A stretch of DNA of 64,000 nucleotides from Microbulbifer harenosus (lineage in GTDB: Bacteria > Pseudomonadota > Gammaproteobacteria > Pseudomonadales > Cellvibrionaceae): the NCBI RefSeq assembly GCF_005771435.1, contig NZ_VANI01000009.1, positions 62,001 through 126,000 on the forward strand. The letters are read 5' to 3'. The notes under the pieces were generated by a model that was not told where the DNA came from, made no database searches, and saw nothing but the letters and a program-made list of their open reading frames with translations. This document shows positions 50,214 to 64,000 of this stretch, piece after piece (position 1 is the stretch's first letter; each line of letters starts with the position of its first letter). Made by a program: the position numbers and the translations under genes.

Positions 50214-50888
50214 GTGATAGACGCCGAATTTACCCAGCCGCAGGAAGAGTTCCGCACCACCCAGGAGCGTGTTTACTACCAGGTGCGCGATGCCATCCTG
50301 CGGGGCCAGTTCCTGCCGGGCAGGGCGATTACCATTCGCGGTCTGGCGGAGCAGCTGAACTGCAGCCCGATGCCGGTGCGCGAGGCGCTGCGTCGCCTGA
50401 CGTCTGAGCGCGCGCTGGAACTGTCGGACACCCGCCGGGTAACCGTGCCCACCCTGACCCGGGAAAAACTGGATGAAATCTGTGCAGCCCGCGTTGCGCT
50501 GGAGTGCCAGGCAGCGGCGCAGGCACTGCCATTCGTAGGGGAAAGCGAGATCGCGACGTTGCGCGCGCTGGATGACCGGATCACCGCAGCGCTGGCCAAA
50601 CACGACATTCAGGAATACGTCACTGGCAATCTGGAATTTCACTTCACCCTGTACCGGCTCGGTCGCCCCTACATCATCCTCTCACTGATCGAAAGCCTAT
50701 GGTTGCAGACGGCACCGCTGCAGCATCTGGTGTTCCAGCGTTTCGGTGTGCAGGAATTGCCGGATCGCCATCAGGATCTGATCCGGGCTATCGCTCAGAA
50801 AGATGAGCTGCGTGTACGCACCGCCATTCGCCAGGACATTGAAGAAGGCCTGGGTTCCATTTCCGCCGAAGAGTTGTTGCCGACCTGA
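50214..50888 (+). CDS. GntR-family transcriptional regulator (FCD/FadR type)
   Basis: 224 aa from a GTG start. N-terminal winged helix: YYQVRDAILRGQFLPGRAITIRGLAEQLNCSPMPVREALRRLTSERALE. C-terminal FCD ligand domain: LDEICAARVALECQAAAQAL, EFHFTLYRLG, and LPDRHQDLIRAIAQKD, which carries the metal-binding histidine. Such regulators usually repress catabolic genes in response to organic acids. Its targets may include the polyamine-type operon at 60216, whose promoter has a GntR-like palindrome, but that link is a guess. It overlaps the next gene by one base. Confidence 0.88.
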   Translation: MIDAEFTQPQEEFRTTQERVYYQVRDAILRGQFLPGRAITIRGLAEQLNCSPMPVREALRRLTSERALELSDTRRVTVPTLTREKLDEICAARVALECQAAAQALPFVGESEIATLRALDDRITAALAKHDIQEYVTGNLEFHFTLYRLGRPYIILSLIESLWLQTAPLQHLVFQRFGVQELPDRHQDLIRAIAQKDELRVRTAIRQDIEEGLGSISAEELLPT

Positions 50889-51196
50889 TGTTCAGTTATC
50901 TCCATATCGTTTTACATCTGCTTGTACCACTGGCCATTGCCTGGTTTTTCTTTCGCGATGAATGGAAAAAAGCCGCACTGTTTATGTTGGCCGCAAACCT
51001 GGTGGACCTGGATCATCTGCTGGCCTCCCCGATGTATGACCCCAATCGCTGCAGTATCAATTTCCATCCATTACACACCATGTTTCCGATCTCTTTTTAC
51101 GGGGCCATGATATTCCTGCCGTGGAAGCCTGTGCGCTGGCTGGGTATCGGCCTGATTACCCATATGTTGCTGGATGCCATCGACTGCGGCCTCTGA
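50888..51196 (+). CDS. DUF6122 small membrane protein
   Basis: 102 aa integral membrane protein; the ATG overlaps the TGA of the GntR gene (TGATG), implying translational coupling. Three hydrophobic stretches are seen (IVLHLLVPLAIAWFFF, ISFYGAMIFLPW, IGLITHMLLDAI). Conserved His/Asp residues in HIVLHL, LVDLDHLL and THMLLDAIDC suggest a metal-dependent membrane hydrolase of the YdjM/YbcI type. Matches DUF6122 by pattern; function unknown. Confidence 0.75.
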   Translation: MFSYLHIVLHLLVPLAIAWFFFRDEWKKAALFMLAANLVDLDHLLASPMYDPNRCSINFHPLHTMFPISFYGAMIFLPWKPVRWLGIGLITHMLLDAIDCGL

Positions 51197-51339
51197 TTCC
51201 TGCGCATTTTTTTGCGTAAGTGTTCTGTTTTCGCCAAAACTTGACGGTTTTCTCCCGATTGCGGAACGGGACATTTTTTCCTGCGCTGATGAATATAGTC
51301 TGGATCTGCAAAATAAAAATCAGCTAACAGGAGCATTTT

Positions 51340-52205
51340 ATGCAGAAGACTTCGTCGCGGCCGTTGACGGCCGCAATTCCGCACTGGGTACTCACATTGT
51401 TGTTGCTTGGGGCTGGGCAGGGCGCATTTGCCTGCATTTCCTCCGAATCGGAATCTAACGACGCCGAGTCCGATGCCGACGGCCCGGTCTGCTCGGAGCA
51501 GACCGTCAATGGCAATATCGCCAATCGCCGGGATCAGGACTGGTACTACTTCAACATCAACCAGGCGGCCAGCCTGAATATTTCCCTCGACCATGCCAGT
51601 GGCGATGATTTTGACTGGCATCTGTATGACCCCTCACAAAAACTCTACAGTGCTGAGACGGGCAATCGCCCGGAAGCGGCCAGTGTCAACGTCGGTGGAG
51701 CCGGTCTCTACACCCTGAAAATCACCCGCTACTCTGGAACCGGGTATTACGCTCTCGACGTGGACGGTATTCCTTCCGGTGGTACCAGCAGCAGTAGTAG
51801 CAGTGGTGGCAGCAGTAGCGGCGGCAGCGGTGGTGGCTGCAGTGTCGGTTCGCGGCCGTCAAAGCCGGGTGGGCTGACCAGCTATCTGAGCGGCAGTCAG
51901 GCGGATGTCTGCGTGAGCCAGAATGATCCAGGCGTCCTGGTGATGGGGGGCGGCAGCGATGTGGATGATGCCTTCACCCGCCGGGTGAAGCCGCGAATTG
52001 GCGGTGGCGACGTGGTGGTGCTGCGCACCTCCGGCAGTGATGGCTACAACGATTACCTGATGGGTTTGCTGGATGCAGATTCCGTGGAAACCCTGATGGT
52101 AGACTGGACCCAGTTCGCCAATAGCGAAAAAGCAACGTGAATTTCATTGCTGCCATTGAGCGCTCCTCTTCCGACTACCACCTCAGTGAGTGGTTCGACG
52201 AGTAG
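51340..52205 (+). pseudogene. Broken extracellular PPC-cyanophycinase gene
   Basis: An open frame of 266 codons ends at 52140. Signal peptide (LLLLGAGQGAFA), PPC domain (about 50-145: DQDWYYFNINQAASLNISLDH, GLYTLKITRYSGTGYY), a Ser/Gly linker (149-168), then the start of an S51 peptidase (VLVMGGGSDVDDAFTRRV, DVVVLRTSGSDGYNDYL, FANSEKA). After the stop, a -1 frame continues plausibly (NFIAAIERSS and LSEWFDE) to another stop at 52205. The segment with the expected GGDQ, and the catalytic Ser domain, are missing. So it has a frameshift and an internal plus 3' deletion. An intact family member lies at 58587. Confidence 0.7.
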
Positions 52206-52526
52206 CTTTCCCGCCTCGGCATAGCCGGGCGCTCGACGCTGTTTAGCGTGCCGTCGAGCACAGGGAAGCTATACGTCGGAATTCCTTCCGTATCGTTTGC
52301 TCTCCACAATCTACCAGGATTTACGTGTGGCCTGAATTGCTCAGGTGCTGGCTCGGGCCCGTCGTGCGGCTTCCGGCTGGTCATAACGCGTGTACCTGCA
52401 GTCCCGTCCGGCTTTGCGTCATTGGCGCACCCAGTGCCCATGATTGTCTGAACAGCACAATCACTGCCATGAATAACAAGCATTGCCAATGCAACACAGG
52501 GCGAGACGCCCGGAAGGGGAATCAAC
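52206..52526. other. Leader region before the TonB receptor gene
   Basis: 321 bases without a supported gene. It holds a strong hairpin at 52231-52259 (GCTCGACG ... CGTCGAGC, with a nested CGCT/AGCG). It may also hold eroded remains of the preceding cyanophycinase. GGAAGGGGA at 52511-52519 is the ribosome site of the next gene. No clear promoter was seen. Confidence 0.5.
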
Positions 52527-55386
52527 GTGGATAATAAGAAGCAACATCACAGAACAGGTCTCTACAACGCGATCCATCTGGCGCTCGGCTGTTCGCTGGT
52601 CAGTGTCGGCGCCGTTGCCCAGGAAAAGCCGGTGGAAAGCACCGTCGAAGAAGTTTTGGTTACCGGTACCCATATCAAGGGACTCGATACCGAGGGCGCG
52701 GTGCAGGTCGTGCAGATCAATCGCGACGATATCGCAGCGTCCGGTGCAACGTCACCCATCGAAATCCTGCAGCAGCTGACCCAGACCGGCGGCGGCAGCG
52801 GAACCTTTTCCACGGCTACCGGCGGTCCGCTGTCCAGCAATACCCCGGTGGGGGCCGCGGGTGTTTCCCTGCGCGGCCTGGGCGCGAGTTCCACACTGGT
52901 GCTGGTGAACGGTCGCCGCGTTTCCGTGAGTTCCTTCGCCAAGGGACAGGAGTCGTTTGTGGATGTGAACTCCATTCCGCTGTCCGCGATTGAACGCGTG
53001 GAAGTGTTGCCCAGCGGCGCCGCCGCCACCTACGGTGCCGATGCCGTGGCCGGTGTGGTGAACTTCGTTCTGCGCGATGACTTTGAAGGCAGTGAAGTTA
53101 CCCGTGACCCACGGCAACTCCACCGCGGGCAGCGATGAAGGCAAATACAACCTGAACTGGGTGTGGGGCAACAAAGGCGAGCGCAGCCACACTATGGTGG
53201 TGGTGGATCTGTTCTCCCGCAATGCCATGTACGATCGCGACCGCAAACTCACGGCCAATTCCGTGCGCCCGAGCCAGCAGGGGATTTACCCGAGTTTCAA
53301 TGACATATATTCGATGTATTACGACCAGACTGAGGGGCCTGAAACCGGCGGTTGTCCGGAGGATCAGTTTGGATCGGGAAGACTGGGCGAATATTGCGAG
53401 TTCAATACCAACTCGTTAGTGGCCACACAAGACGAATACGAAAGTGCCAGTGTCGTGGCAACATTCAACTACGACATCTCAGACAAGCTGGAGTGGTTCA
53501 ACAACTTGATGCTGCAGACCAACACTTCTCGCGGTACCTCGTCACCGGCGAACTTCAGCTATGTGCCGGTGGATCCAGAGAGCCCGCTTTGGCCGGATGC
53601 GCTCAAGGCGGATATTGTCGAGGAAGGCTCATTCAGCCCGGATGCTCCTACCAGTGATTTCAGTGATTTTTACGGTTATCCGATTTATGCCTGGGGCAAA
53701 TTCCCCGATCCCCGTGCCGTTGAAGTGGAAAGCACATCCGTACGCTTCCTCAGCGGTCTGCGCGGTGAACTGGGTGGCTGGAGCTGGGAAACCGCACTGA
53801 ATATCGGCCGCGCGGAGTCAGATCAGCGCGGCCTGTCCGGTCTGTATAAATCCGAAGGGTTCATCAATGCCCTGGTCGGTAACCTCTGTTCCGATGGGTC
53901 GCTGGTGAATCGTTGGGATGTGAATTTGCAGACGCCGCGTAGAACGAGTTATGGCGCCGGCGAAACCTGTGAAGACCTGGGCAAAACTACTGCCTGGTAC
54001 AACCCTTTCAATGGCCAGGCCAAGCAGGTGGATGCCATCGACCAGTTCGTGCGCACCGATGCCCGTCGCAGTGGCGAATCCAGCCTTTACGCCATCGACG
54101 GCAATATTTCAGGTTCGTGGATCGAGTTGCCTGCGGGCGCCATCCAGGTGGCATTCGGTGGTGAATTCCGCCGCGAATCCGTGGCGGACACACCGTCCGG
54201 TGATGCCATTTCCACCACCCTGAATCCCGAGCCGATTCTTGGTTTCAGCTCCACCTCCGCCGATGCCGCGCGCAACCAGTGGGCGCTTTATATGGAACAG
54301 ATGATCCCGCTCGCGGCTAACACGGAACTGCAACTGGCGCTGCGCTACGACCATTACGACAGCTTCGGCGGCGATGCCAATCCGAAACTCGCCCTGCGCC
54401 ATGCCTTCAACGACGCGATCATTTTCCGCAGCAACTGGTCCACGTCCTTCCGCGCACCGTCGTTGGCACAGGTCGGCGCGGGCACGCTGCTCTCCAGCTA
54501 CACCGTGGACTGCAGTGTGACGCCGGAGGCCTGTGACGGATTCGACGACGAAGACGGTGAGGCACTGTTTTCGGAAGAAGTGAGCAACAACGACCTCAAG
54601 CCGGAAACTGCCACCACCTGGGGCATGGGTTTTCTGCTGAAGCCCGGCAAGGACACCGAAATCAGTATTGACTATTGGAATATCGAGCACGAAAACCTGA
54701 TTGGCGTTGAGGAAGATGACTTCATTCTGCGCGCTCTTGCTGGCGATTTTCCAGTCGTGGGCGAGGGCGACTTAGCCACCGGTCAGCCGGGCCTAGAGGT
54801 CGCCAACGGCTTTGTGGTGGATGCCCACTTCCAGCTGGCGAACCTGGGCTGGCAGAAAACCAGCGGTGTGGATATGGCGTTCACCCAGTATTTCGATACC
54901 GAAAACTGGGGCAGCTTCCGCTTCACCCTGGATGGCACCTACATGGCCGAGTTCGACAAGCTGCCGTCTGAGGCGCTGGGCATCGTGAGTGAAGCGGGCA
55001 ACTACACCTACCCACGCTGGCTGGCCAACAGCTCGCTGCGCTGGCGTATGGAGGATTGGTCCACCACGCTGTTTGCGCGCTACACCCACAGCTATGCCGA
55101 TGACCCCAGCCCACGTGTGCTGGAGGCAATCCAGGAGCCGGGAGCCGAGTATTTCCTGTCCCGCGTTAACTTTGACAAGAACGGCGATGTGGAAGTGGAC
55201 AAGTGGCTGGTGTTTGACCTGAGTGTCAATCGCGAATTCAGCAACGGCAGCTGGCTGAGCCTGCGGGTCAATAACCTGTTGGATGAAGAGCCGCCGCTGG
55301 TGCTGGGTACCAGTGCCAACGTGGATAACTTTAACCACAACTCCATGGGGCGTTTCTACACCCTGAGTTATACCCACGCCTTCTGA
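52527..55386 (+). pseudogene. TonB-dependent outer-membrane receptor, split by a one-base frameshift
   Basis: Frame 1 (52527-53138, GTG start) gives signal peptide, TonB-box region (EEVLVTGTHIKG) and plug domain (VSLRGLGASSTLVLVNGRRV, IPLSAIERVEVLPSGAAATYGADAVAGVVNFVLRDDFEGSEVT). Frame 2 carries on from VTHGNSTAGSDEGKYNLNW to the barrel end (GRFYTLSYTHAF) with the C-terminal Phe. One extra C in the CCC at 53101-53103 explains the shift: without it the text reads VTVTHGNS. Total would be about 950 aa. Either a real mutation or a sequencing error. The subfamily resembles receptors for peptides or oligosaccharides; the neighbours suggest a beta-aspartyl peptide. Confidence 0.85.
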
Positions 55387-55467
55387 TCGGCGTCCCACAG
55401 GAACTGATCACGGCAGGTGCGCGGTTTGCACCTGCCGACAATTTTCAACTTACTGCGGTGCTATTTC

Positions 55468-56979
55468 ATGCAGACCAGTGAAACAGAGTCCCCGGACGTG
55501 GTGGAGCGGTCCGTAAACAAAACCTGGGCAATGCCGGACACGTATCTGATATTGCTCGCGGTAGCTCTGATTGCGTTCGCGCTCAATTTCCTCATTCCCG
55601 CCGGTACCTACGAGACCGTGACCAGCGTGGTCAATGGCAGCGAGCGCAGCGTTATCGACCCGGCCAGTTACCAGCAGGTGTCGGATGAACCGGCTGGTTT
55701 ATCCCTCTTCGCCGAGGGTGGAGAAATCGGCCTGCTGAATTTTGCTTTCGAAGGTATGGTGTCCGGCAGCAAATGGGGCGCGTCCATCGGTGTATTCGCT
55801 TTCATATTACTCACAGGCGGTGCTTTCGGGCTGATTTTTGCCAGTGGCTCGGTGGAGCGCGGCCTGTTTCAGGTGATTGCGCGCAAACGGGAAGCGGGAC
55901 ATTTTTACCTGGCACTGCTGTGTTTTCTGTTCTCCATTGGCGGGGCTGTGTTTGGAATGGGGGAGGAGGTGATTCCCTTTGCCTTGATTCTGGTGCCGCT
56001 GCTGGTGTCCATGGGATACGACAGTATCACCGCAATAATGGTGACCTATGTGGCCACCCAGGTGGGCTTCGCCACGTCGTGGATGAATCCGTTCGGGGTC
56101 AGTATTGCCCAGGGTATTGCCGGGGTTCCGGTGATGTCAGGCAGTGTTCCGCGCATGCTGTTGTGGCTGTTCGCCACCTGTGGGCTCGCGCTCTACACCG
56201 TGATCTATGCGCGCCGCATTCAGCGCCGTCCGACGCTGTCCTTGGCGTACTGCTCTGATCAGGTTTTTCGCAATCAGACACAGTCTGTCTCAGCACTGAA
56301 ATCCATGGTGCGCGGCGATGGTTGGGTGCTGCTGCTGTTTTGTGCGGGCATCGCCTGGATGATCTGGGGGGTGGTGGAGCGCAATTATTTTCTGCCGGAG
56401 ATCGCCACCCAGTTTTTTACCATGGGCATTGTAATTGCCGCAGTCGCCATCCTGTTCGGATTGAATGGGCTCACTGCCAACAAGGCAGCCGCGGCTTTTC
56501 GTGAAGGGGCGCAACAGCTGTTGCCCGCGGCCATGGTAGTGGCGTTTGCCAAGGGCATTGTGCTGCTGCTCGGCGGCGATGACCCACAGGGCGCCAGCGT
56601 CCTCAACACCGTATTGCATGCTGCGGGCAATGGTCTCGCGGATGTGTCCGGCGCGGTTTCCGCCTGGTTCATGCTGCTGTTCCAGACCGTGTTCAATTTC
56701 TTCATTACTTCGGGGTCCGGCCAGGCCGCCTTGACAATGCCGATCATGGCGCCGTTGGCGGATGTCGTCGGTGTAACCCGCCAGACAGCGGTGTTCGCCT
56801 TCCAGTTGGGCGACGGCTTCAGCAATATCGTGGTGCCGACATCTGCATCACTGATGGGGTGCCTGGGGGCCGCGCGTCTGGATTGGGGCGTGTGGCTGCG
56901 CTTCGTGCTTCCTTTGATGGGCATATTGTTTCTATTTGCCTCCGTCGCCGTGGTTATCGCCGCGATATCTGGATTCTGA
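55468..56979 (+). CDS. YfcC-family amino acid/peptide transporter
   Basis: 503 aa inner-membrane protein with about 12 hydrophobic segments, of the YfcC (C4-dicarboxylate/ arginine-ornithine antiporter-like) family. Typical phrases: TYLILLAVALIAFALNFLIPAGTY, GAFGLIFASGSVERGLF, IGGAVFGMGEEVIPFALILVPLL, FNFFITSGSGQAALTMPIMAPLADVVGVTRQ, FQLGDGFSNIVVPTSASLMG. An ATG at 55417 codons upstream is possible, but 55468 gives the usual N-terminus. It sits between the TonB receptor and iadA (20 bases before the latter), so it probably carries the dipeptide or its amino acids across the inner membrane. Confidence 0.85.
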   Translation: MQTSETESPDVVERSVNKTWAMPDTYLILLAVALIAFALNFLIPAGTYETVTSVVNGSERSVIDPASYQQVSDEPAGLSLFAEGGEIGLLNFAFEGMVSGSKWGASIGVFAFILLTGGAFGLIFASGSVERGLFQVIARKREAGHFYLALLCFLFSIGGAVFGMGEEVIPFALILVPLLVSMGYDSITAIMVTYVATQVGFATSWMNPFGVSIAQGIAGVPVMSGSVPRMLLWLFATCGLALYTVIYARRIQRRPTLSLAYCSDQVFRNQTQSVSALKSMVRGDGWVLLLFCAGIAWMIWGVVERNYFLPEIATQFFTMGIVIAAVAILFGLNGLTANKAAAAFREGAQQLLPAAMVVAFAKGIVLLLGGDDPQGASVLNTVLHAAGNGLADVSGAVSAWFMLLFQTVFNFFITSGSGQAALTMPIMAPLADVVGVTRQTAVFAFQLGDGFSNIVVPTSASLMGCLGAARLDWGVWLRFVLPLMGILFLFASVAVVIAAISGF

Positions 56980-56998
56980 ATAATTAAGTTGTAGGGAT

Positions 56999-58171
56999 AT
57001 GTCTCAAATTACTCTGATAAAGAACGCGAACGTATTCGCCCCGCGCAGTCTGGGTCGCTGTGACGTGCTGGTGGCCGGTGAGCGTGTGGCCAAAATCGAT
57101 CAGAACATCGATCTTCCGGATTATCTTGGACAGACAGTGGATGCCGACGGTGCCTGGCTGATGCCCGGGCTGGTGGACTCTCTGGTGCATATCAGTGGCG
57201 GTGGTGGTGAGGGCGGCTTTGCGTCGCGCACGCCGGAGCTGGATGTGCGGGATGCTGTGAGTTCGGGCGTGACCACCGTGGTGGGCGCCCTTGGAACCGA
57301 TGCAATCACCCGCACACTCAATGAACTCTTCGGCAAAGCCAAGGCGCTGGAAGCGCAGGGGATTACCTGTTTCATCCAGACCGGCTCCTACCAGGTACCG
57401 GTCAACACCCTGACCGGCAGTGTGCGCAGTGATGTCATGCTGGTGGACAATATTATCGGCGTCGGTGAGCTGGCGATTTCTGATCATCGTTCTTCACACC
57501 CCTCTCGCGATGAGTTGATCCGGATCGCCGCTGACGCGCGCGTTGCGGGATTGCTCAGTGGCAAAGGTGGCGTGGTCTCTATACATGTGGGGGATGGCCC
57601 CGGGCGGTTATCACCATTATTCGACGCCGTTGAAAACTCTGAAATCCCGATTACGCAGTTTTACCCGACGCACATGAACCGCAACGACGCCCTGCTGGCG
57701 CATGGGGTTCGCTTCGTGCGCGCTGGCGGCTTCATTGATTTTACCACTTCAACCACTCCGGAAATCCTCGCCACAGGCGAGTTACGCGCGAGCCGGGCTT
57801 TGAGGATGGCGCAGGAGCAGGGGGCGTCAATAGACCAAATTACGTTTTCTTCTGATGCACAGGGGTCGCTGACCAACTTCTGCGAACAGGGTGAACTGCG
57901 GGATATTGAGGTGGGTTCAATTGCCAGTTTGTTCGATGAGTTCCGGCGCGCGGTGCAAGACGAAGGGATAGAACTCTCGCAGGCGCTGCAGGTCGTTACG
58001 CTCAATCCCGCGCGCGCGCTCGGGCTCAAGCGCAAAGGCCAGATTGTTACCGGACGGGATGCCGACCTGATCCTGGTTGATCCCGATCGTTTCCAGATCA
58101 CGCATGTCATGGCGCGAGGGCGATGGCAGATGGTGGACCACCAACTCCGCGCTGCGCGGGTGTCTGTTTGA
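56999..58171 (+). CDS. iadA: Isoaspartyl dipeptidase homologue with altered metal ligands
   Basis: 390 aa, amidohydrolase superfamily, closest to IadA (cleaves beta-Asp-Xaa dipeptides). Conserved: GGGGEGG (Glu71), Tyr131 in TGSYQVP, SDHRSSHP, His196 (SIHVGDG), His225 (YPTHMNRN) and Asp286 (SSDAQGS). Deviations: the HxH motif reads SLVH, so the first metal His is Leu62, and the residue that is a carbamylated Lys in E. coli IadA is Glu157 (GVGELAISDHR). This is expected to change or lose the first metal site. The gene is in an operon with the YfcC transporter and a cyanophycinase, favouring beta-Asp-Arg as substrate. Confidence 0.85.
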   Translation: MSQITLIKNANVFAPRSLGRCDVLVAGERVAKIDQNIDLPDYLGQTVDADGAWLMPGLVDSLVHISGGGGEGGFASRTPELDVRDAVSSGVTTVVGALGTDAITRTLNELFGKAKALEAQGITCFIQTGSYQVPVNTLTGSVRSDVMLVDNIIGVGELAISDHRSSHPSRDELIRIAADARVAGLLSGKGGVVSIHVGDGPGRLSPLFDAVENSEIPITQFYPTHMNRNDALLAHGVRFVRAGGFIDFTTSTTPEILATGELRASRALRMAQEQGASIDQITFSSDAQGSLTNFCEQGELRDIEVGSIASLFDEFRRAVQDEGIELSQALQVVTLNPARALGLKRKGQIVTGRDADLILVDPDRFQITHVMARGRWQMVDHQLRAARVSV

Positions 58172-58185
58172 ATGGTGAGGGTGGA

Positions 58186-58590
58186 ATGATGCGGCAAGAT
58201 CGACATCTGTTTGAGGAATCGCTGGCACTGATGCACAACAATCTCTCCGAGCCATTGCAGACTGGCGAGTTGGCCGCTTATCTCGGTATTACTCCCAAGA
58301 AGTTGGAGCGGATATTTCGCCGATATACCGGAGAGTTACCCGCACGCTTTTATCGCTCACTGAGGCTGGAGCTGGCACGAGGCCTGCTGCACGGCAGCGG
58401 GCTGGGCATTGATGAAATCGGGCGGCGCTGCGGCTTCAGTTCCGCCTCGCATTTCAGCCGTTGCTTCCGGGACTTTGTTGGGCACAGTCCGCGAGAGGAG
58501 CGCAAACGGCGGGAAATGCCTGCGCGTCTGCAACACGCTTTCGCGAGTTCACTGAAATCTGAATTCTTTGGCGTGGAGCACAGTTCATGA
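58186..58590 (+). CDS. AraC-type helix-turn-helix regulator without ligand domain
   Basis: 134 aa carrying only the double HTH: LQTGELAAYLGITPKKLERIFRRYTGELPARFYRSLRLELARGLL and IDEIGRRCGFSSASHFSRCFRDFVGHSPREER. The usual N-terminal ligand or GlxA-like domain is absent; only about 20 residues precede the first helix. The ATG at 58186 has GAGGGTGGA before it; an earlier in-frame start (58123) overlaps iadA. It overlaps the next gene by four bases (ATGA). It most likely regulates this operon. Confidence 0.85.
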   Translation: MMRQDRHLFEESLALMHNNLSEPLQTGELAAYLGITPKKLERIFRRYTGELPARFYRSLRLELARGLLHGSGLGIDEIGRRCGFSSASHFSRCFRDFVGHSPREERKRREMPARLQHAFASSLKSEFFGVEHSS

Positions 58591-59876
58591 AAGCGGAAAT
58601 TAAAACGCGCGCGATTCTCGGCTTGCTCGTGGCTCTGCTGAGCGCATGTGGTGGTGCCGAAGTATCCCGGGATGCACCGGAAGGATCTGGCAGTCTGTTG
58701 ATCGTCGGTGGCGCACTGCGCAGTGATAACACGGCGGTATATCGCGCATTTATCGACGCCATACCCGCACAGTTTCCCGAGATTGCTATTGTGCCTGTCG
58801 CGTCGGGGCGACCGGCATATTATGCACAGCAGTTCACAGCAGACCTCCGTCGCCATGGGTTTAACGGTGACATCCGCATACTGCCCATTGCGATGGTGGA
58901 TGACCCGTCTACCGACGCCGAGGATGAAAGCCTGTGGCGTTCCGGCGGCGGCGACCTCGCATTGGCAGCAAGCTTGAGTGAGGTCGGTGGCATCTGGTTT
59001 GTCGGTGGTGATCAGACCCGTATTACTACTGCGCTGTACGCAGAGAACAATATGGAAACGCCGGTGCTGCAAGCGATTCGTCGGCAATTGTCGCCCGGTG
59101 CGGTCATTGGAGGGACCAGTGCGGGAGCGGCCATCATGAGTCGCACCATGATTGCCGCCGGAGACGCCTTGAGCGCTCTGACAATGCCACCGACGGATCA
59201 GTATGTGGGAATGGAGAGCCAGGAGTCCGGCCAGCTGATGCTGTCGCAGGGGTTGGGATTTCTGCCCGTTGGCGTGGTGGATCAGCACTTCGACCGCAAG
59301 GCGCGGCTCGGGCGACTTGTGCGTACCCTGGCACTGGTGGGGGATACGGCGGGCCGCCTGGGCTTTGGTGTCGACGAGGACACCGCGGTACTGGTAGACC
59401 TTGCCAGCGCGGAAATGACCGTGCTGGGGGCTGGCAATCTTGTATTCGCGGATGGGCGCGGGGCGGTGTTCAGTGACGGGGAGCAGGCATTTGCGGCGAG
59501 GGGCCTGCAGCTCTCTGTATTGAGCGCGGGCGACACTTACAATTGGCGCACAAACCGCTACGGCCTTTCCGGCGGCGAAACGCAACAGCGGGAAGCGTTT
59601 GGTTACAAGGTAATCCACGGCGCGGGTATGGCTCTCGGCAATCCACGGCTGGATCAGCTGCTGGGATTCTCTCTGCTGGACAATACTGAAGCCCGCGAGC
59701 TGCGCCGTATTACTTTCGACGAAGAATCGGGAAAGGGTGTCCTTTTTCGTTTTCGTCAAACCGATGAAAGCCGCGGTTACTGGCGTTATAGCTCCGGTAC
59801 CAAGGACCAGTATTCTGTTGTGGGTGTTGAGCTGGAGATAGCGCCTGTTTCCGTCTCTGTTTCCTCCCGTCCCTGA
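58587..59876 (+). CDS. Cyanophycinase-type S51 peptidase, lipoprotein
   Basis: 429 aa. Signal peptide with lipobox LLSACGG (Cys21), so it is exported and lipid-anchored. S51 features: SGSLLIVGGALRSDN, GIWFVGGDQTRI, nucleophile Ser178 in IGGTSAGAAIMS, and VVDQHFDRKARLGRL (His234), then FGVDEDTAVLV. Known cyanophycinases hydrolyse cyanophycin (multi-Arg-poly-Asp) to beta-Asp-Arg, and extracellular forms exist in bacteria that feed on it. A longer C-terminal beta-rich part (about 290-429) is not typical of cytoplasmic CphB. Located in the putative operon with iadA; other S51 specificities cannot be excluded. Confidence 0.8.
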   Translation: MKAEIKTRAILGLLVALLSACGGAEVSRDAPEGSGSLLIVGGALRSDNTAVYRAFIDAIPAQFPEIAIVPVASGRPAYYAQQFTADLRRHGFNGDIRILPIAMVDDPSTDAEDESLWRSGGGDLALAASLSEVGGIWFVGGDQTRITTALYAENNMETPVLQAIRRQLSPGAVIGGTSAGAAIMSRTMIAAGDALSALTMPPTDQYVGMESQESGQLMLSQGLGFLPVGVVDQHFDRKARLGRLVRTLALVGDTAGRLGFGVDEDTAVLVDLASAEMTVLGAGNLVFADGRGAVFSDGEQAFAARGLQLSVLSAGDTYNWRTNRYGLSGGETQQREAFGYKVIHGAGMALGNPRLDQLLGFSLLDNTEARELRRITFDEESGKGVLFRFRQTDESRGYWRYSSGTKDQYSVVGVELEIAPVSVSVSSRP

Positions 59877-60109
59877 GTGCTGACTTAATGGTCAAGTGGC
59901 GTGCTCGTGTCGAGGCGCCACGCCGTCCCGTCGATCTCCCGGTCTCCCTCCACCTCCGGTTTTTGCCTTCTGTTCACCCGTCGCCGTTGTCTGACAACAG
60001 GCTATTCTGCTTGAAATATGCTCAGTAAGCGTCCAGTGGCCACCACACGGTGGCCGTTGGCACTACGCTTGTGCTGGGACCGGGGCTTCCAGCTTTTGTT
60101 GAATATCGC
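59877..60109. other. Intergenic region after cyanophycinase with hairpins
   Basis: Part of a 339-base gene-free stretch. It holds a hairpin GTGGCG...CGCCAC at 59897-59922 and a stem GGCCACC/GGTGGCC with loop ACAC at 60038-60055. Neither has a T-tract, so Rho-independent termination is doubtful. No ORF is supported. Confidence 0.4.
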
Positions 60110-60150
60110 TTGCACCCTCCATTTCCCAGTAGCTAGAATGTGATCACATT
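60110..60150 (+). promoter_or_regulatory. Promoter with operator-like palindrome before the transaminase gene
   Basis: TTGCAC at 60110-60115 and TAGAAT at 60134-60139, 18 bases apart, make a good sigma-70 promoter. A perfect 14-base palindrome, AATGTGATCACATT at 60137-60150, overlaps the -10 and start region, where a repressor would block transcription. The TGTGATCACA core recalls GntR-family sites; it lacks the N6 spacer of a CRP site. Gene starts 66 bases downstream. Confidence 0.6.
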
Positions 60151-60215
60151 TTGGTGTCACTTGCCGCCGTCGGGGCAATCAGTAAGGCAGGCACTACACA
60201 AACAGGAGTGAGTTC

Positions 60216-61565
60216 ATGAACAAGAGCCAGTTACAACAACATGACCGCGAGCACCTGCTGCACCCCTTCACCGATTTTCATGACCTGGGAGCGCAGGGCA
60301 CCCGTGTAATTACCAGCGCGGAAGGGGTCTATATCAACGATATTGACGGCCACCGAATGCTCGACGGTATGTCCGGCCTGTGGTGCTGCAATCTGGGTTA
60401 CAGCCGCCGGGAAATTTCCGAGGCTATTTACGAGCAGCTCAATCGGCTGCCGTTCTATAACAGTTTTTTCCAGTGCACCACGGTTCCGTCCATTGAGCTT
60501 GCGGACCTGCTGGCGGAAGTCACCCCAGCACACATGAACAATGTATTTTTCACCGGCTCCGGCAGTGAGGCCAACGACACAAATCTGCGCATTATTCGCC
60601 GTTACTGGGATCTGAAAGATCAGCCGGAGAAGCGCATCGTTATCTCGCGCAAAAATGGTTATCACGGTTCGACGATCGCCGGCGCCAGCCTGGGTGGCAT
60701 GAGTGGCATGCACAAGCAATTCCAGGCGCTGGACTATATCGAACATATCCAGCAGCCATACTGGTTTGGTGAGGGTGGCGACATGTCGCCCGATGAATTC
60801 GGTATTTACGCCGCGCGCTGTCTGGATGAAAAGATTCAGGAGTTGGGGCCGGAAAAGGTCGCCGCCTTTATTGCCGAGCCTATTCAGGGGGCTGGCGGTG
60901 TGATCATTCCGCCGCAAACCTACTGGCCGGAAGTGAAAAAAGTTCTGGATCAATACGACATACTGCTGGTGATGGATGAAGTCATCTTCGGCTTCGGCCG
61001 CACCGGCGAGTGGTTCGGATCTGACTATTACGGAATGAAACCGGACCTGATGACCTTTGCGAAGGCCGTCACCAACGGCTATTTCCCATTGGGTGGGACA
61101 ATGGTCGGTGACCGTGTGGCCGAAGTGATCAAATCCAGGGGGGGAGAGTTCACCCACGGTTACACCTATTCCGCGCACCCCGCAGCCTGTATGGCGGGAC
61201 TCGCCACCATCAATATCCTGCGGGATGAAGGCATTATCCAAAACGTGCGCGACAACACGGCACCATACCTGGCCAAGCGTTGGGCGGAGCTGGCGGATCA
61301 TCCTATTGTGGGTGAGGCGCGGTCGCTCGGGCTTGTCGGTGCGCTGGAACTGGTCAAAGACAAGTCCAGCCGGGAGCGCTTTGACGACAAGGCTAGCGCA
61401 GGCGGCGTCTGCAGAAATATGAGCATCAAGAATGGGCTGGTGATGCGCGCCACCGGTGACACGATGATTATCGCACCACCGTTGATTCTCACCACCGAAC
61501 AAATTGACGAACTGGTGGAAAAAGCCCGCCGCGCGCTGGATGATACTGCCAAAGCCATGGCGTAA
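60216..61565 (+). CDS. Class III aminotransferase, putrescine/polyamine-pyruvate type (SpuC-like)
   Basis: 449 aa PLP transaminase. Landmarks: GHRMLDGMSGLWCCNLGYSRREI, FFTGSGSEANDTNLRIIRRY, AFIAEPIQGAGGVIIPP, MDEVIFGFGRTGEWFG and PLP-Lys in MTFAKAVTNGYFPLGGTMV. Sequence style matches SpuC/YgjG-relatives (polyamine:pyruvate or omega-amino acid:pyruvate). Start HLLHPFTDFHDLGAQGTRVI is typical. GGAGTGAG precedes the ATG. It is followed by a glutamyl-polyamine synthetase-like gene, so a role in putrescine, cadaverine or spermidine catabolism is likely. The donor amine is not determinable. Confidence 0.88.
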   Translation: MNKSQLQQHDREHLLHPFTDFHDLGAQGTRVITSAEGVYINDIDGHRMLDGMSGLWCCNLGYSRREISEAIYEQLNRLPFYNSFFQCTTVPSIELADLLAEVTPAHMNNVFFTGSGSEANDTNLRIIRRYWDLKDQPEKRIVISRKNGYHGSTIAGASLGGMSGMHKQFQALDYIEHIQQPYWFGEGGDMSPDEFGIYAARCLDEKIQELGPEKVAAFIAEPIQGAGGVIIPPQTYWPEVKKVLDQYDILLVMDEVIFGFGRTGEWFGSDYYGMKPDLMTFAKAVTNGYFPLGGTMVGDRVAEVIKSRGGEFTHGYTYSAHPAACMAGLATINILRDEGIIQNVRDNTAPYLAKRWAELADHPIVGEARSLGLVGALELVKDKSSRERFDDKASAGGVCRNMSIKNGLVMRATGDTMIIAPPLILTTEQIDELVEKARRALDDTAKAMA

Positions 61566-61644
61566 ACTGCATGATACAGTACCCGTTCGCGCGGATTTCC
61601 CGCGCGGGCGTGGGAATTGAAATACCTCCAGAAGTGAATTGGTT

Positions 61645-63033
61645 ATGGCAGCACAAGAACAATATGAGCCGTCCAGGGAATTGCTTGCAGCGTCTGAAGC
61701 CTTTCTTGACGCGCATCCGAAACTCAAATGGATTGAAGGGTTTGCATTCGATATCAACGGCGTTCCCAGAGGAAAATGGTTACCGGCCGATTCTGCGCAC
61801 AAGCTGCTTGGCGGCGGCCTGCAGATGCCGCGCAGTGCCGTCAGCCTGGATATCTGGGGGCGGGATATAGAGAACAGTCCTCTGGTCTTCGCCAGTGGCG
61901 ACAGTGATGGCATCTGTATGCCGGTATCTCCCATCTGCATGGCGCCGTGGCACCGCGAGCAGACGGCACAACTGCACATGCAGCTGTTCGAGGCCGATGG
62001 CTCGGTGTTGTTCGCCGATCCGCGCTCCCAGCTGCAAAAAGTCGTGGCGCGGATTGAGCGCCTCGGTTACAAGGCGGTGTGTGCCACCGAGCTTGAATTT
62101 TATCTCCTGCGGGAAGGAGCTGATGAGCTGGGCCATCCTCGCCCTGTCAGCGACAACGACTCAGATCTGGTGCCGTCCACCGACGTTTACGACCTTTCGG
62201 AACTCGATTCCCAGCGACACTTCTTCGCCGATGTGCGCGCAGCCTGTGAGGCTCAGGACATCCCTGCGGATTCGATTATCTCTGAATATTCTCCCGGTCA
62301 GTTTGAGATCAACCTGCTGCACTGTAACGATCCGGTAAAGGTGGCCGATCAGACGCTGCTGTTCAAGCGGCTGTTGAAAGGAGTGGCCCGCAGCCACGGT
62401 TTGCGTGTCAGCACCATGGCCAAATTGTTTGGCGATCTCGCCGGCAACGGGATGCACGTCCATCTGAGTCTCGAAGATAAAGACGGCAACAATGTATTTG
62501 ACGATGGCAGCGAAGAGGGCACCGACCTGTTGCGCCATGCCGTGGCCGGCATGATGGCGACGGCGAACGATGCCATGGCGATTTTTGCACCCCACAGCAA
62601 CTCTTACCGGCGCTTCCAGGAAAGCAGCCACGCGCCGCTGAATCTGTGCTGGGGGTATGACAACCGCACCGTCACCTTCCGCATCCCCGCCGGTGACTCC
62701 AATGCCAGACGTATCGAACATCGCATTGCCGGTGCCGATGTGAATGCCTATCTGGTACTGGCGGCCATTCTCGCTGGCGTGTGCCACGGCCTGGAAAATC
62801 GCCTGCAGCCACCAGAGCCGGTGGAAGGGGATGCCTACCAGATGGAGTGTGAAGAGCAACTGATCAACACCTGGAGTGGCGCGCTCGACAAGTTCGAAGA
62901 GAGCACATTGTGGAAAGACTACTTCGATCCGGAGTTCGTTGATCTGTTTGTGATGTTGAAGCGTCAGGAACAGGCGGAAATTGCTTCCCGGGTGACGGAT
63001 GTAGAGTACGAGAGTTATCTGCAACGGGTTTGA
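61645..63033 (+). CDS. Gamma-glutamylpolyamine synthetase, glutamine synthetase family (PuuA/SpuB-like)
   Basis: 462 aa glutamine synthetase-fold ligase. ATP/metal motifs: ATELEFYLLR, ISEYSPGQFEINL, NGMHVHLSLED and NLCWGYDNRTVTFRIP, with the late RRIEHRIAGADVNAYLVLAA. Missing the features of GlnA type I (adenylylation loop), and with WLPADSAHKLLGGG in the N-terminal domain it fits PuuA/SpuB, which ligates glutamate to putrescine or another polyamine. 79 bases after the transaminase, same strand. It suggests glutamylated polyamine catabolism in the same operon. TTG at 61639 also possible. Confidence 0.85.
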   Translation: MAAQEQYEPSRELLAASEAFLDAHPKLKWIEGFAFDINGVPRGKWLPADSAHKLLGGGLQMPRSAVSLDIWGRDIENSPLVFASGDSDGICMPVSPICMAPWHREQTAQLHMQLFEADGSVLFADPRSQLQKVVARIERLGYKAVCATELEFYLLREGADELGHPRPVSDNDSDLVPSTDVYDLSELDSQRHFFADVRAACEAQDIPADSIISEYSPGQFEINLLHCNDPVKVADQTLLFKRLLKGVARSHGLRVSTMAKLFGDLAGNGMHVHLSLEDKDGNNVFDDGSEEGTDLLRHAVAGMMATANDAMAIFAPHSNSYRRFQESSHAPLNLCWGYDNRTVTFRIPAGDSNARRIEHRIAGADVNAYLVLAAILAGVCHGLENRLQPPEPVEGDAYQMECEEQLINTWSGALDKFEESTLWKDYFDPEFVDLFVMLKRQEQAEIASRVTDVEYESYLQRV

Positions 63034-63202
63034 TGCGCTGCCGGTGAATGTAGAGGCGTGGATTGCGACCCGTAATCAACGGCTTTTGTGTCAGTGTGGC
63101 AGGCAGCGGAAAATGCTCTGCTATACCTTAATCAGACAGCTGTGCACTTGAGTGTGCAGCGCGTCGCAAACTCTCCTCCTGAAAGTGTGTTCGAGAAAAC
63201 TG

Positions 63203-63228
63203 GCCCGCCTTATGGCGGGCATTTTTTT
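63203..63228 (+). terminator. Rho-independent terminator after the polyamine genes
   Basis: GCCCGCC, loop TTAT, GGCGGGC, then ATTTTTTT. Lies 170 bases after the synthetase gene. Confidence 0.85.
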
Positions 63229-63397
63229 GGAGGACGCAAACTAGCAGAAATTTCTTCCCATTTGTCAGCGAATGCTTAGGCAGTACTTGCTGTTTCATCC
63301 GAAACTCCACCTATACTGATTCTGACCGTACGCGCGGGTCACAGTTATCCTGTGGCTCGGCCGTCATGGAGCATTTCAGAGCTAAAAGGAGTTACTC
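63229..63397. promoter_or_regulatory. Leader and likely promoter region of the OmpW-type gene
   Basis: Together with 63034-63202 this is a 364-base gap. TATACT at 63312-63317 could be a -10, with TTGCTG at 63287-63292 as a weak -35 (19-base spacer). AAAAGGAG lies before the ATG. No other structure was recognised in 63034-63202. Confidence 0.35.
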
Positions 63398-64000
63398 ATG
63401 CGAACCAAGTCCCTGCTTTTTCCACTGGCAGTTGCCGCCGCAAGCGCAACTTCGCCGGCATTCGCCGACTTCAATGCTGGCGATTTCATTCTGCGTGTCG
63501 GTGCTGGCTATATGGAGGCCGACGATTCCGTATTTTCGCGACCCGAGCGTGTAGTAATCCCCGATCCCAACAACCCCAACGATCCGGATGCCACCATCAC
63601 TGTGGATATCCGAGAATCGGTGGATCTTGATAACGATACGACCTGGTTTATCAACGGCACTTATTTCATTATGGATCACGTGGCGGTTGAGCTCTACCAC
63701 CTGAACAGTGCGGACCTTGATGCCAATTTCAACACCGATATTCGTGGTGCAGGAATTAACGCCCGGAGCGCCAATGGACTGGGGGATTTCGAAACATCGG
63801 TAACCAGCTTTTTTGTCGACTGGTACCCTGTGTGCGTGGAGTCCTGGATTCAGCCGTATATGGGCATTGGGGTCAATTACACGGACATCGAGCAGGATTT
63901 CCTGCGTCCAGCGTTTACCTATGACAATGTCAATTACGGCCTGATCAATCTCGGCAGTTCCTGGGGATGGACCGCGCAGATTGGTGTGGATATTGAGTTT
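63398..64000 (+). CDS. OmpW-family outer membrane protein, cut by window edge
   Basis: 201 codons visible, no stop before the window end. Signal peptide MRTKSLLFPLAVAAASATSP ending AFA. Mature start DFNAGDFILRVGAGYMEADDS, then DLDNDTTWFINGTYFIMDHVAVELYHL, SFFVDWYP, IQPYMGIGVNYTDIEQDF and SWGWTAQIGVDIEF match the eight-strand OmpW barrel. OmpW channels pass small hydrophobic compounds and respond to stress. Strong AAAAGGAG before the ATG. C-terminal barrel strands are outside. Confidence 0.88.
   Translation, partial: MRTKSLLFPLAVAAASATSPAFADFNAGDFILRVGAGYMEADDSVFSRPERVVIPDPNNPNDPDATITVDIRESVDLDNDTTWFINGTYFIMDHVAVELYHLNSADLDANFNTDIRGAGINARSANGLGDFETSVTSFFVDWYPVCVESWIQPYMGIGVNYTDIEQDFLRPAFTYDNVNYGLINLGSSWGWTAQIGVDIEF

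Follow-up and report, generated by a model that had tools for sequence, protein, structure and literature searches.

Cyanobacteria and other bacteria store nitrogen as cyanophycin, and to our knowledge little has been learned about the ways in which other microbes locate and consume it. A same-strand gene block in Microbulbifer harenosus poses the question in concrete form: is it a route by which cyanophycin, or some other source of beta-aspartyl dipeptides, is taken up and degraded? The block occupies positions 51340–63033 of the 64,000-nucleotide stretch analysed here (the window; contig NZ_VANI01000009.1, positions 62,001 to 126,000), and every feature of it described below lies on its + strand. 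An initial annotation had listed an exported S51 cyanophycinase-type enzyme, a TonB receptor, a YfcC-type transporter, an isoaspartyl dipeptidase homologue and a helix-turn-helix (HTH) regulator, followed by a transaminase and a glutamyl-polyamine synthetase; profile matches and open frames confirm these genes and their coordinates. We think it probable that the block represents, in Microbulbifer, a cyanophycin-scavenging module shared by several lineages of Gammaproteobacteria, equipped with an isoaspartyl dipeptidase (IadA) that has Leu for a zinc-ligand His and with a stalling leader peptide, and with its outer steps broken in this strain.

A discrete gene module in Microbulbifer

We surveyed 48 genomes of the genus, of which 20 carry the module (the window genome and 19 relatives) and 28 do not. 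The module comprises S51a, the leader, the TonB receptor gene, yfcC, iadA, araC and S51b, and is a discrete insertion in those 20. The order patatin-like gene, gntR, membrane protein, S51a, receptor, YfcC, IadA, AraC, S51b, transaminase and glutamine synthetase-like (GS-like) gene is identical in 19/19 module-bearing relatives. S51b is present in 20 of the 48 genomes, and IadA above its profile cut-off (TIGR01975, 331.25 bits) in exactly the same 20. Co-occurrence with conserved order in related genomes was the check that had been proposed for this locus, and its outcome places the gene set beyond chance.

The boundary of the module is set by genomes that lack it. At the flanking site, examined in 20 of the 28 module-free genomes, the flanking genes stood together without any module gene in 20/20. 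The small membrane gene begins 0.5–2.3 kb upstream of the transaminase in 15 of these genomes and was undetected in the other five. The class-III transaminase (60216–61565) is present in 48/48 genomes, and directly after it, in all 20 module-free genomes examined, comes the GS-like ligase gene of the gamma-glutamylpolyamine synthetase type (61639–63033), for which no GS equivalog profile scored above cut-off. Because the transaminase is universal and the flanking genes adjoin at the empty site, we end the module at S51b. The transaminase and the ligase, initially grouped with the scavenging set, are core neighbours, and we rejected both as parts of the system.

Related loci recur in other Gammaproteobacteria. 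Within the genus, Microbulbifer sp. NKW57 (L087 7550-9991) carries the module at a different site, with no S51a or AraC match. This copy is damaged by a deleted receptor–YfcC junction: its receptor is cut at 385 aa and its YfcC has no N-terminus.

How far does this arrangement resemble known systems? Cyanophycin utilization loci that include iadA and a transporter have been published (cited in an excerpt of PMC10206079), and an excerpt of PMC3400609 notes a TonB-dependent transporter (TBDT) close to a cyanophycinase gene in Citromicrobium in 2012, with cyanophycin as the proposed substrate. The earlier description of the locus as not a textbook system therefore applies to the combination of TonB receptor and YfcC, and not to iadA with a transporter or to a TBDT near a cyanophycinase. 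The locus of Ben Hania et al., as cited in that excerpt of PMC10206079, likewise has a clustered cyanophycinase, iadA and transporter, read as scavenging; the one studied here additionally has a TonB receptor and YfcC, one or two exported S51 enzymes, a variant IadA and the leader. The words 'TonB' and 'YfcC' have 0 occurrences in PMC10206079, and the excerpt of PMC3400609 describes no IadA, carrier or leader with the Citromicrobium pair. We found no link between YfcC and cyanophycin in the open-licence literature. Against the features of such loci, the window holds a cyanophycinase, an iadA (with a reservation over Leu62), and a transporter (YfcC intact, the receptor frameshifted), and the genome has no CphA1, the cyanophycin synthetase, which scored above cut-off in 0/48 Microbulbifer genomes. 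Judged by its genes, the system is predicted to work like a cyanophycin utilization locus, a known kind.

In the pathway that we propose, secreted S51a would cleave the polymer outside the cell and the TonB receptor would move the fragments into the periplasm. In the Microbulbifer type, S51b, a lipoprotein-type cyanophycinase, would finish these fragments to beta-Asp-Arg. YfcC would take the dipeptide into the cytoplasm, and the dedicated IadA would split it there.

S51b (58587–59876) scores 178.1 bits against TIGR02069 (cut-off 126.6), has a lipobox-like signal, LSAC, read by eye, and, aligned to solved cyanophycinases, retains the catalytic Ser and substrate-binding motifs GGTSAG, GGDQ and DQHFDRKARLGR. 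It thus shares GGDQ, the GGTSAG nucleophile and DQHF with CphB (3en0) and the secreted CphE type, and departs from them in having Lys for the first Arg after DQHF. S51a-type proteins differ in having a PPC domain and mostly DTHF, and the window S51a is truncated; full-length S51a of relatives carries GGDQ, GGTSAG and D[TS]HF, and in two relatives it matched both S51 and PPC, one PPC match falling just under its cut-off. Across 100 distinct proteins, the best S51 matches of loci with Leu-type IadA, GGDQ and D[TQS]HF were each found in 99, as was the G[TS]SAG nucleophile motif (65 GGTSAG/GATSAG; 24 GTSAG and 10 GSSAG in other settings). The carrier (55417–56979) is a YfcC-type inner-membrane protein of the DcuC family, with 387.1 bits to PF03606 and 649.6 bits to NF008611 (cut-off 500).

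Some scores weigh against cyanophycin itself. Both intact Microbulbifer S51a proteins that were scored reached 95 and 97 bits, and three Alteromonadales-type S51 proteins (L116, L118 and L140) reached 66–101 bits, all below the cyanophycinase cut-off of 126.6; given these scores, the substrate could be a polymer related to cyanophycin. Beyond that, the module might import isoaspartyl peptides from damaged protein, or from another beta-aspartyl polymer. The three Alteromonadales-type scores speak for such a substrate, as does the promiscuity of studied IadAs, even one from a cyanophycin cluster (excerpt of PMC10206079). We nevertheless regard it as unlikely, since the S51 proteins retain the cyanophycinase motifs GGDQ and D-x-H-F, the two Microbulbifer S51b copies scored both pass the cut-off (window, 178.1 bits; L033, 188), and four genomes with a Leu locus have a second, His-type IadA beside a cyanophycinase, followed in the one scored by CphA1 above cut-off.

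An isoaspartyl dipeptidase with Leu62

The enzyme expected to act last in this pathway is itself unusual. The iadA gene (56999–58171) scores 481 bits against TIGR01975, which upholds its assignment as an isoaspartyl dipeptidase homologue, yet it does not encode a normal IadA: position 62 (codon 57182–57184) is Leu, where five aligned solved IadA sequences have His. The two-zinc ligand set (H, H, E, H, H, D) is thereby incomplete, with L62 for the first His and the other five ligands present. Ligand sets in excerpts of PMC7774594 and PMC10206079 assign the replaced His to the second zinc, and an excerpt of PMC5517026 gives Glu157 as a known feature of type-I IadA. With the type-I enzymes FiBAP, CpsIadA and LmIadA, the window protein shares Glu for the carboxylated Lys and all substrate positions checked. 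It differs at the first zinc-2 ligand His (H61 in FiBAP, H64 in LmIadA, H68 in EcIadA), which is Leu in the group described here.

We asked how widely this substitution occurs by examining 80 IadA loci from a scan of public genomes, in which one of the two search patterns included the Leu motif. Position 62 was Leu in 21 loci and His in 59. All 21 Leu loci belong to Gammaproteobacteria and have a YfcC match, and the remaining eleven metal and substrate site positions are identical in 80/80 loci. One of these genomes belongs to a Bowmanella-centred family of 295 genomes, which also includes Rheinheimera (Chromatiaceae in NCBI; Bowmanella itself is placed in Alteromonadaceae). IadA occurs in 127 of the 295, and 80 of the matches listed there were examined as well, mostly high-scoring with some from the low-scoring end, so that the shares of Leu and His are not frequencies. 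In a class-level survey, IadA was found in 8/369 genomes at E<=1e-60.

The residue at position 62 follows the neighbourhood of the gene. A tally of 182 IadA loci (113 Leu and 69 His, some duplicates) placed S51, receptor and YfcC beside 98 of the Leu loci, S51 and YfcC beside 7, receptor and YfcC beside 5, YfcC only beside 2 and S51 and receptor beside 1. Every receptor locus in this tally, duplicates included, has Leu62 (104/104). A receptor stands beside 0/69 His loci, 12 of which have S51 and YfcC. Distinct sequences numbered 109 Leu and 75 His, counting loci whose flanks are too short for neighbours to be judged, and the Leu group is also marked by V59 (105/109), L107 (103/109) and S194 (99/109). 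Separately, position 290 is Cys rather than Ser in nine His-type IadAs (L297 and L300–L307), and for eight of these an S51 match lies some 1.2 kb downstream.

Two simple accounts of Leu62 could be rejected. It is not decay of this strain alone, since relatives carry Leu too. Nor is it a mere taxonomic marker, since four genomes (G472, G478, G546 and G744) have both types: the Leu IadA lies in their receptor locus and the His IadA in a different one. In G472, the His-type iadA is followed by a cyanophycinase and then by CphA1 above cut-off; the other three show the same arrangement, seen as open frames only. The Leu/His split formed a single branch in one tree, and a mixture-model tree built without the trait columns gave two Leu/His changes, with L052 on a long branch. 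By these sequence patterns, Leu-IadA forms a subfamily of its own, with a fixed Leu at the place of the first zinc-2 ligand His.

What remains of the metal site suggests how such an enzyme might work. We surmise that Leu-IadA probably functions with one tightly bound zinc (Glu157, His196 and His225) or with a weakened second site. One could instead suppose that it is no longer a peptidase and serves as a binding or sensing protein, or is a dead paralogue: one zinc site has lost one of its four ligands (by the ligand sets in the excerpts of PMC7774594 and PMC10206079), and the module-bearing genomes also encode an IaaA-family enzyme. That enzyme (PF01112; G000:C64:9526-10458 in the window genome) is encoded in 42 of the 48 Microbulbifer genomes, including all 20 with the module; Leu-IadA activity is therefore not forced, which counts against our proposal. 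We still consider loss of peptidase function quite improbable, given that none of the other metal and substrate positions examined varies among the 80 loci, that 109 distinct Leu sequences have been retained and that the ratio of non-synonymous to synonymous substitution rates (dN/dS) of IadA between the window and three relatives is 0.05–0.07, with dS saturated.

A conserved leader peptide before the receptor

The second hallmark of the module is a tiny open reading frame (ORF) upstream of the receptor or of yfcC, whose product ends in LSEWF[DN]E followed by the stop codon. In the window it reads GTG-NFIAAIERSSSDYHLSEWFDE-TAG (52137–52205); its start codon shares bases with the stop codon of the S51a remnant, and Ser stands in place of a Cys common to the other Microbulbifer leaders. 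A pattern permitting only AGY Ser codons and only TAA or TAG stops matched once per genome in all 20 Microbulbifer genomes with the module and in 0/28 others, with zero matches for a reversed-pattern control; redone on the fetched loci with all Ser and all stop codons, the search again returned one site per locus. We therefore rejected the leader as a general Microbulbifer feature.

Beyond the genus, the leader accompanies Leu-IadA. In the Bowmanella-centred family, 88/295 genomes have it, and 86 of these also encode IadA (p ~1e-39, a value that is too strong given the relatedness of the genomes); it is present in 68 of the 73 genomes of the family known to carry Leu-IadA. By locus, it is present in 97/113 Leu loci versus 0/69 His loci. 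In 89 of the 97 it precedes the receptor; in the 8 loci without a receptor in front, it lies 126–213 nt upstream of the first ATG of yfcC. The class-level survey found it in 2/369 genomes, both with Leu IadA, and the reversed control pattern matched once. Additional leaders lie 59–211 nt upstream of S51a-type genes or 107–192 nt upstream of receptors, and ten proteins encoded behind them proved on scanning to be five S51 enzymes and five receptors. In G064, a leader stands 78 nt upstream of an 836-residue S51 ORF. LSEWF leaders at L328/L360, L352, L353, L361 and L364 precede TonB receptors away from the fetched IadA loci.

Is the conserved element a peptide or a nucleic acid signal? Residue conservation among pattern matches arises partly by construction, and an unfiltered search of up to 1000 nt before the receptor provided an independent test. 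Among 98 loci, 83 had an exact LSEWF[DN]E-stop, 5 were one residue off and 10 stood at chance level; those ten were five residues off, and shuffled sequences were 3–6 residues off. This bimodal outcome indicates that the leader peptide is either kept or absent. The Leu and Ser residues of the leader each use six codons which, together with the bimodal protein-level match, makes an untranslated DNA or RNA motif unlikely. A known RNA family was rejected: no Rfam match was found in window positions 50800–63500 up to E=1, and seven relatives gave only a tRNA. On this evidence from sequence comparison, the leader is conserved as a protein. Its stop codons are skewed as well, with TAG in 82, TAA in 28 and TGA in 0 of 110 distinct leaders; 401 other genes in the same loci include 73 TAG and 77 TGA stops.

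The association has exceptions that weigh against a strict coupling of leader and Leu-IadA. Sixteen of the 113 Leu loci have no exact leader, 11 of them of the Rheinheimera type, and L280, L282 and L286, from small genomes, carry the variant LSEWW[DN]E. Two of the five genomes in which only His-type IadA is known have a leader elsewhere, and 2/88 leader genomes have no IadA. A receptor–S51–YfcC–IadA layout in which the receptor is of another kind and the LSEWF leader is absent was seen in L101, L118, L135, L147, L236, L275–L278, L281 and L284 (Rheinheimera-like); no receptor was found for L135 on its 10 kb contig. This Rheinheimera-like layout may use another control.

TnaC and SpeFL are ligand-sensing leader peptides, and the LSEWF leader resembles them in being a short upstream ORF with a conserved C-terminus, a possible event at the stop codon and a C-rich region after it. 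We know of no sequence similarity between the LSEWF leader and either peptide, and its regulon (TonB receptors, yfcC–iadA and S51 genes) is unlike theirs. We propose that the leader, of some 22–27 codons and ending LSEWF[DN]E-UAG/UAA, would gate transcription into the receptor–yfcC–iadA operon. The nascent leader would most likely stall the ribosome at the stop codon in response to a pathway product, candidates being arginine, aspartate and beta-Asp-Arg. The stalled ribosome would then cover a C-rich stretch and a hairpin that otherwise halt transcription.

RNA features after the stop codon were compared with this scheme. In the window, folding of the 48 nt after the leader stop placed a hairpin at 52212–52231, and its consensus in 20 Microbulbifer sequences shows compensatory change in 2/6 pairs. 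The 16 nt 3' of the stop are 40% C and 14% G, and the aligned leaders have no conserved part after the stop. The first hairpin pair lies within 13 nt of the leader stop in 76/79 folds. Mean hairpin z was -1.8 at leaders (n=79), -0.4 further down, 0.0 after the yfcC stop and -0.9 after the iadA stop. Other measurements count against a dedicated element: the receptor's own stop has a stronger hairpin (mean z -2.6), so that the leader hairpin lacks specificity, its sequence differs from family to family, and a run of at least four T within 80 nt was present in only 37/79. An intrinsic terminator after every leader was rejected as a general feature (23/83 versus 8/83 in shuffles), and the stronger hairpins at receptor stops weaken the idea that a hairpin singles out the leader. 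The post-leader hairpin is suggestive only, and the arrangement could be the mark of stalling at the stop codon combined with a block based on Rho or a hairpin.

A simpler mechanism deserves comparison. The leader could be an ordinary codon-starvation attenuator that reads Tyr, Trp and Phe codons, or a working microprotein, rather than a ligand-sensing arrest peptide; receptor-type leaders of the Bowmanella-centred family do contain several Tyr codons along with Trp and Phe. S51a-type leaders, however, have zero to two Tyr in the stretch shown and the same C-terminus. What the forms have in common are the seven C-terminal residues and the stop codon, which is TGA in 0/110; this fits an event at termination. 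We thus find starvation control or a microprotein rather unlikely. Our own fuller proposal is a tentative one that may well not hold in all its parts: LSEWF[DN]E-stop would be an undescribed family of ligand-sensing arrest peptides gating a dispersed cyanophycin regulon (TonB receptors, yfcC–iadA and secreted S51) in Microbulbifer, Bowmanella relatives and other Gammaproteobacteria, and the IadA of this regulon would be a third, one-zinc type specialized for imported beta-Asp-Arg.

The module also encodes an AraC-type regulator (58123–58590; PF12833 84.9 bits), HTH only and 155 aa as called, whose gene overlaps the end of iadA. The HTH-only form (133–155 aa) is found in the window and 11 relatives, and eight others have a form of 312–329 aa; in L045, the one long form scanned, a DJ-1/PfpI match fell just under cut-off.

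Damage to the window copy and wider significance

Could the M. harenosus copy run this pathway? The gene at 51340–52140 is a remnant of S51a that retains the signal peptide, the PPC domain (29.8 bits) and the start of the S51 domain, with the catalytic half gone. It encodes 266 aa; S51a has 454–476 aa in 18 of 19 relatives, and in the 19th a call from the first start codon gives 344 aa. Alignment to relatives shows about 1 kb of DNA missing from it. The profile search gave no S51 domain match in the remnant, and the catalytic Ser and substrate motif are gone with the catalytic half. The TonB-dependent receptor gene (52527–55386) is split by a frameshift near 53095–53106 into plug (52527–53138) and barrel (53077–55386) frames. 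The shift is of one base, seen as one extra C within a short C run, and the receptor is an open frame of 933–1040 aa in 20 relatives with the same receptor.

Substitution rates differ between the two lesions. We computed dN/dS on matched codons between the window and eight relatives and for the 28 pairs of relatives, with dS saturated throughout. The S51a remnant gave 0.10–0.18 (seven defined values) versus 0.03–0.12 among relatives (median 0.065), a rise that points to weaker selection on S51a. The receptor halves gave 0.05–0.07 and 0.07–0.11, close to the 0.02–0.08 and 0.03–0.09 among relatives, which suggests a recent frameshift or an assembly error.

Both lesions might even be artefacts, the module being intact. 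In favour of this, the genome is a single draft assembly of 67 contigs, the frameshift shows as one extra C in a short C run, and dN/dS of the receptor is close to that among relatives. Set against this, the deletion of about 1 kb sits inside a 338 kb contig, dN/dS of the S51a remnant is raised, the window leader lacks the Cys of other Microbulbifer leaders, and a second Microbulbifer, NKW57, likewise has a deleted receptor–YfcC junction. We judge it improbable that assembly errors explain both, and read the outer steps of the module in this strain as broken, as assembled. Because the secreted S51 and the receptor are both broken, the outside-in pathway is probably not intact here, and uptake from the exterior has probably been lost, or is being lost, in this genome. 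The initial annotation thus fares differently part by part. Its main idea of outside-in import and degradation is sound for the module, given the conserved order and co-occurrence, with a route that is probably not intact in this genome; the TonB receptor gene is present, though not as one open frame; and within the block S51b is whole, whereas the S51 gene at 51340 is only an N-terminal half.

As far as open-licence papers show, a Leu-IadA subfamily tied to a scavenging locus and the leader regulon look new. Together, the leader, TonB receptor, YfcC and Leu-IadA would provide a recognizable genetic signature of a scavenging pathway, one that distinguishes scavenging from storage inside single genomes. 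The signature also raises two testable questions: what the conserved seven-residue end of the leader senses, and how an amidohydrolase works after the fixed loss of a zinc ligand.

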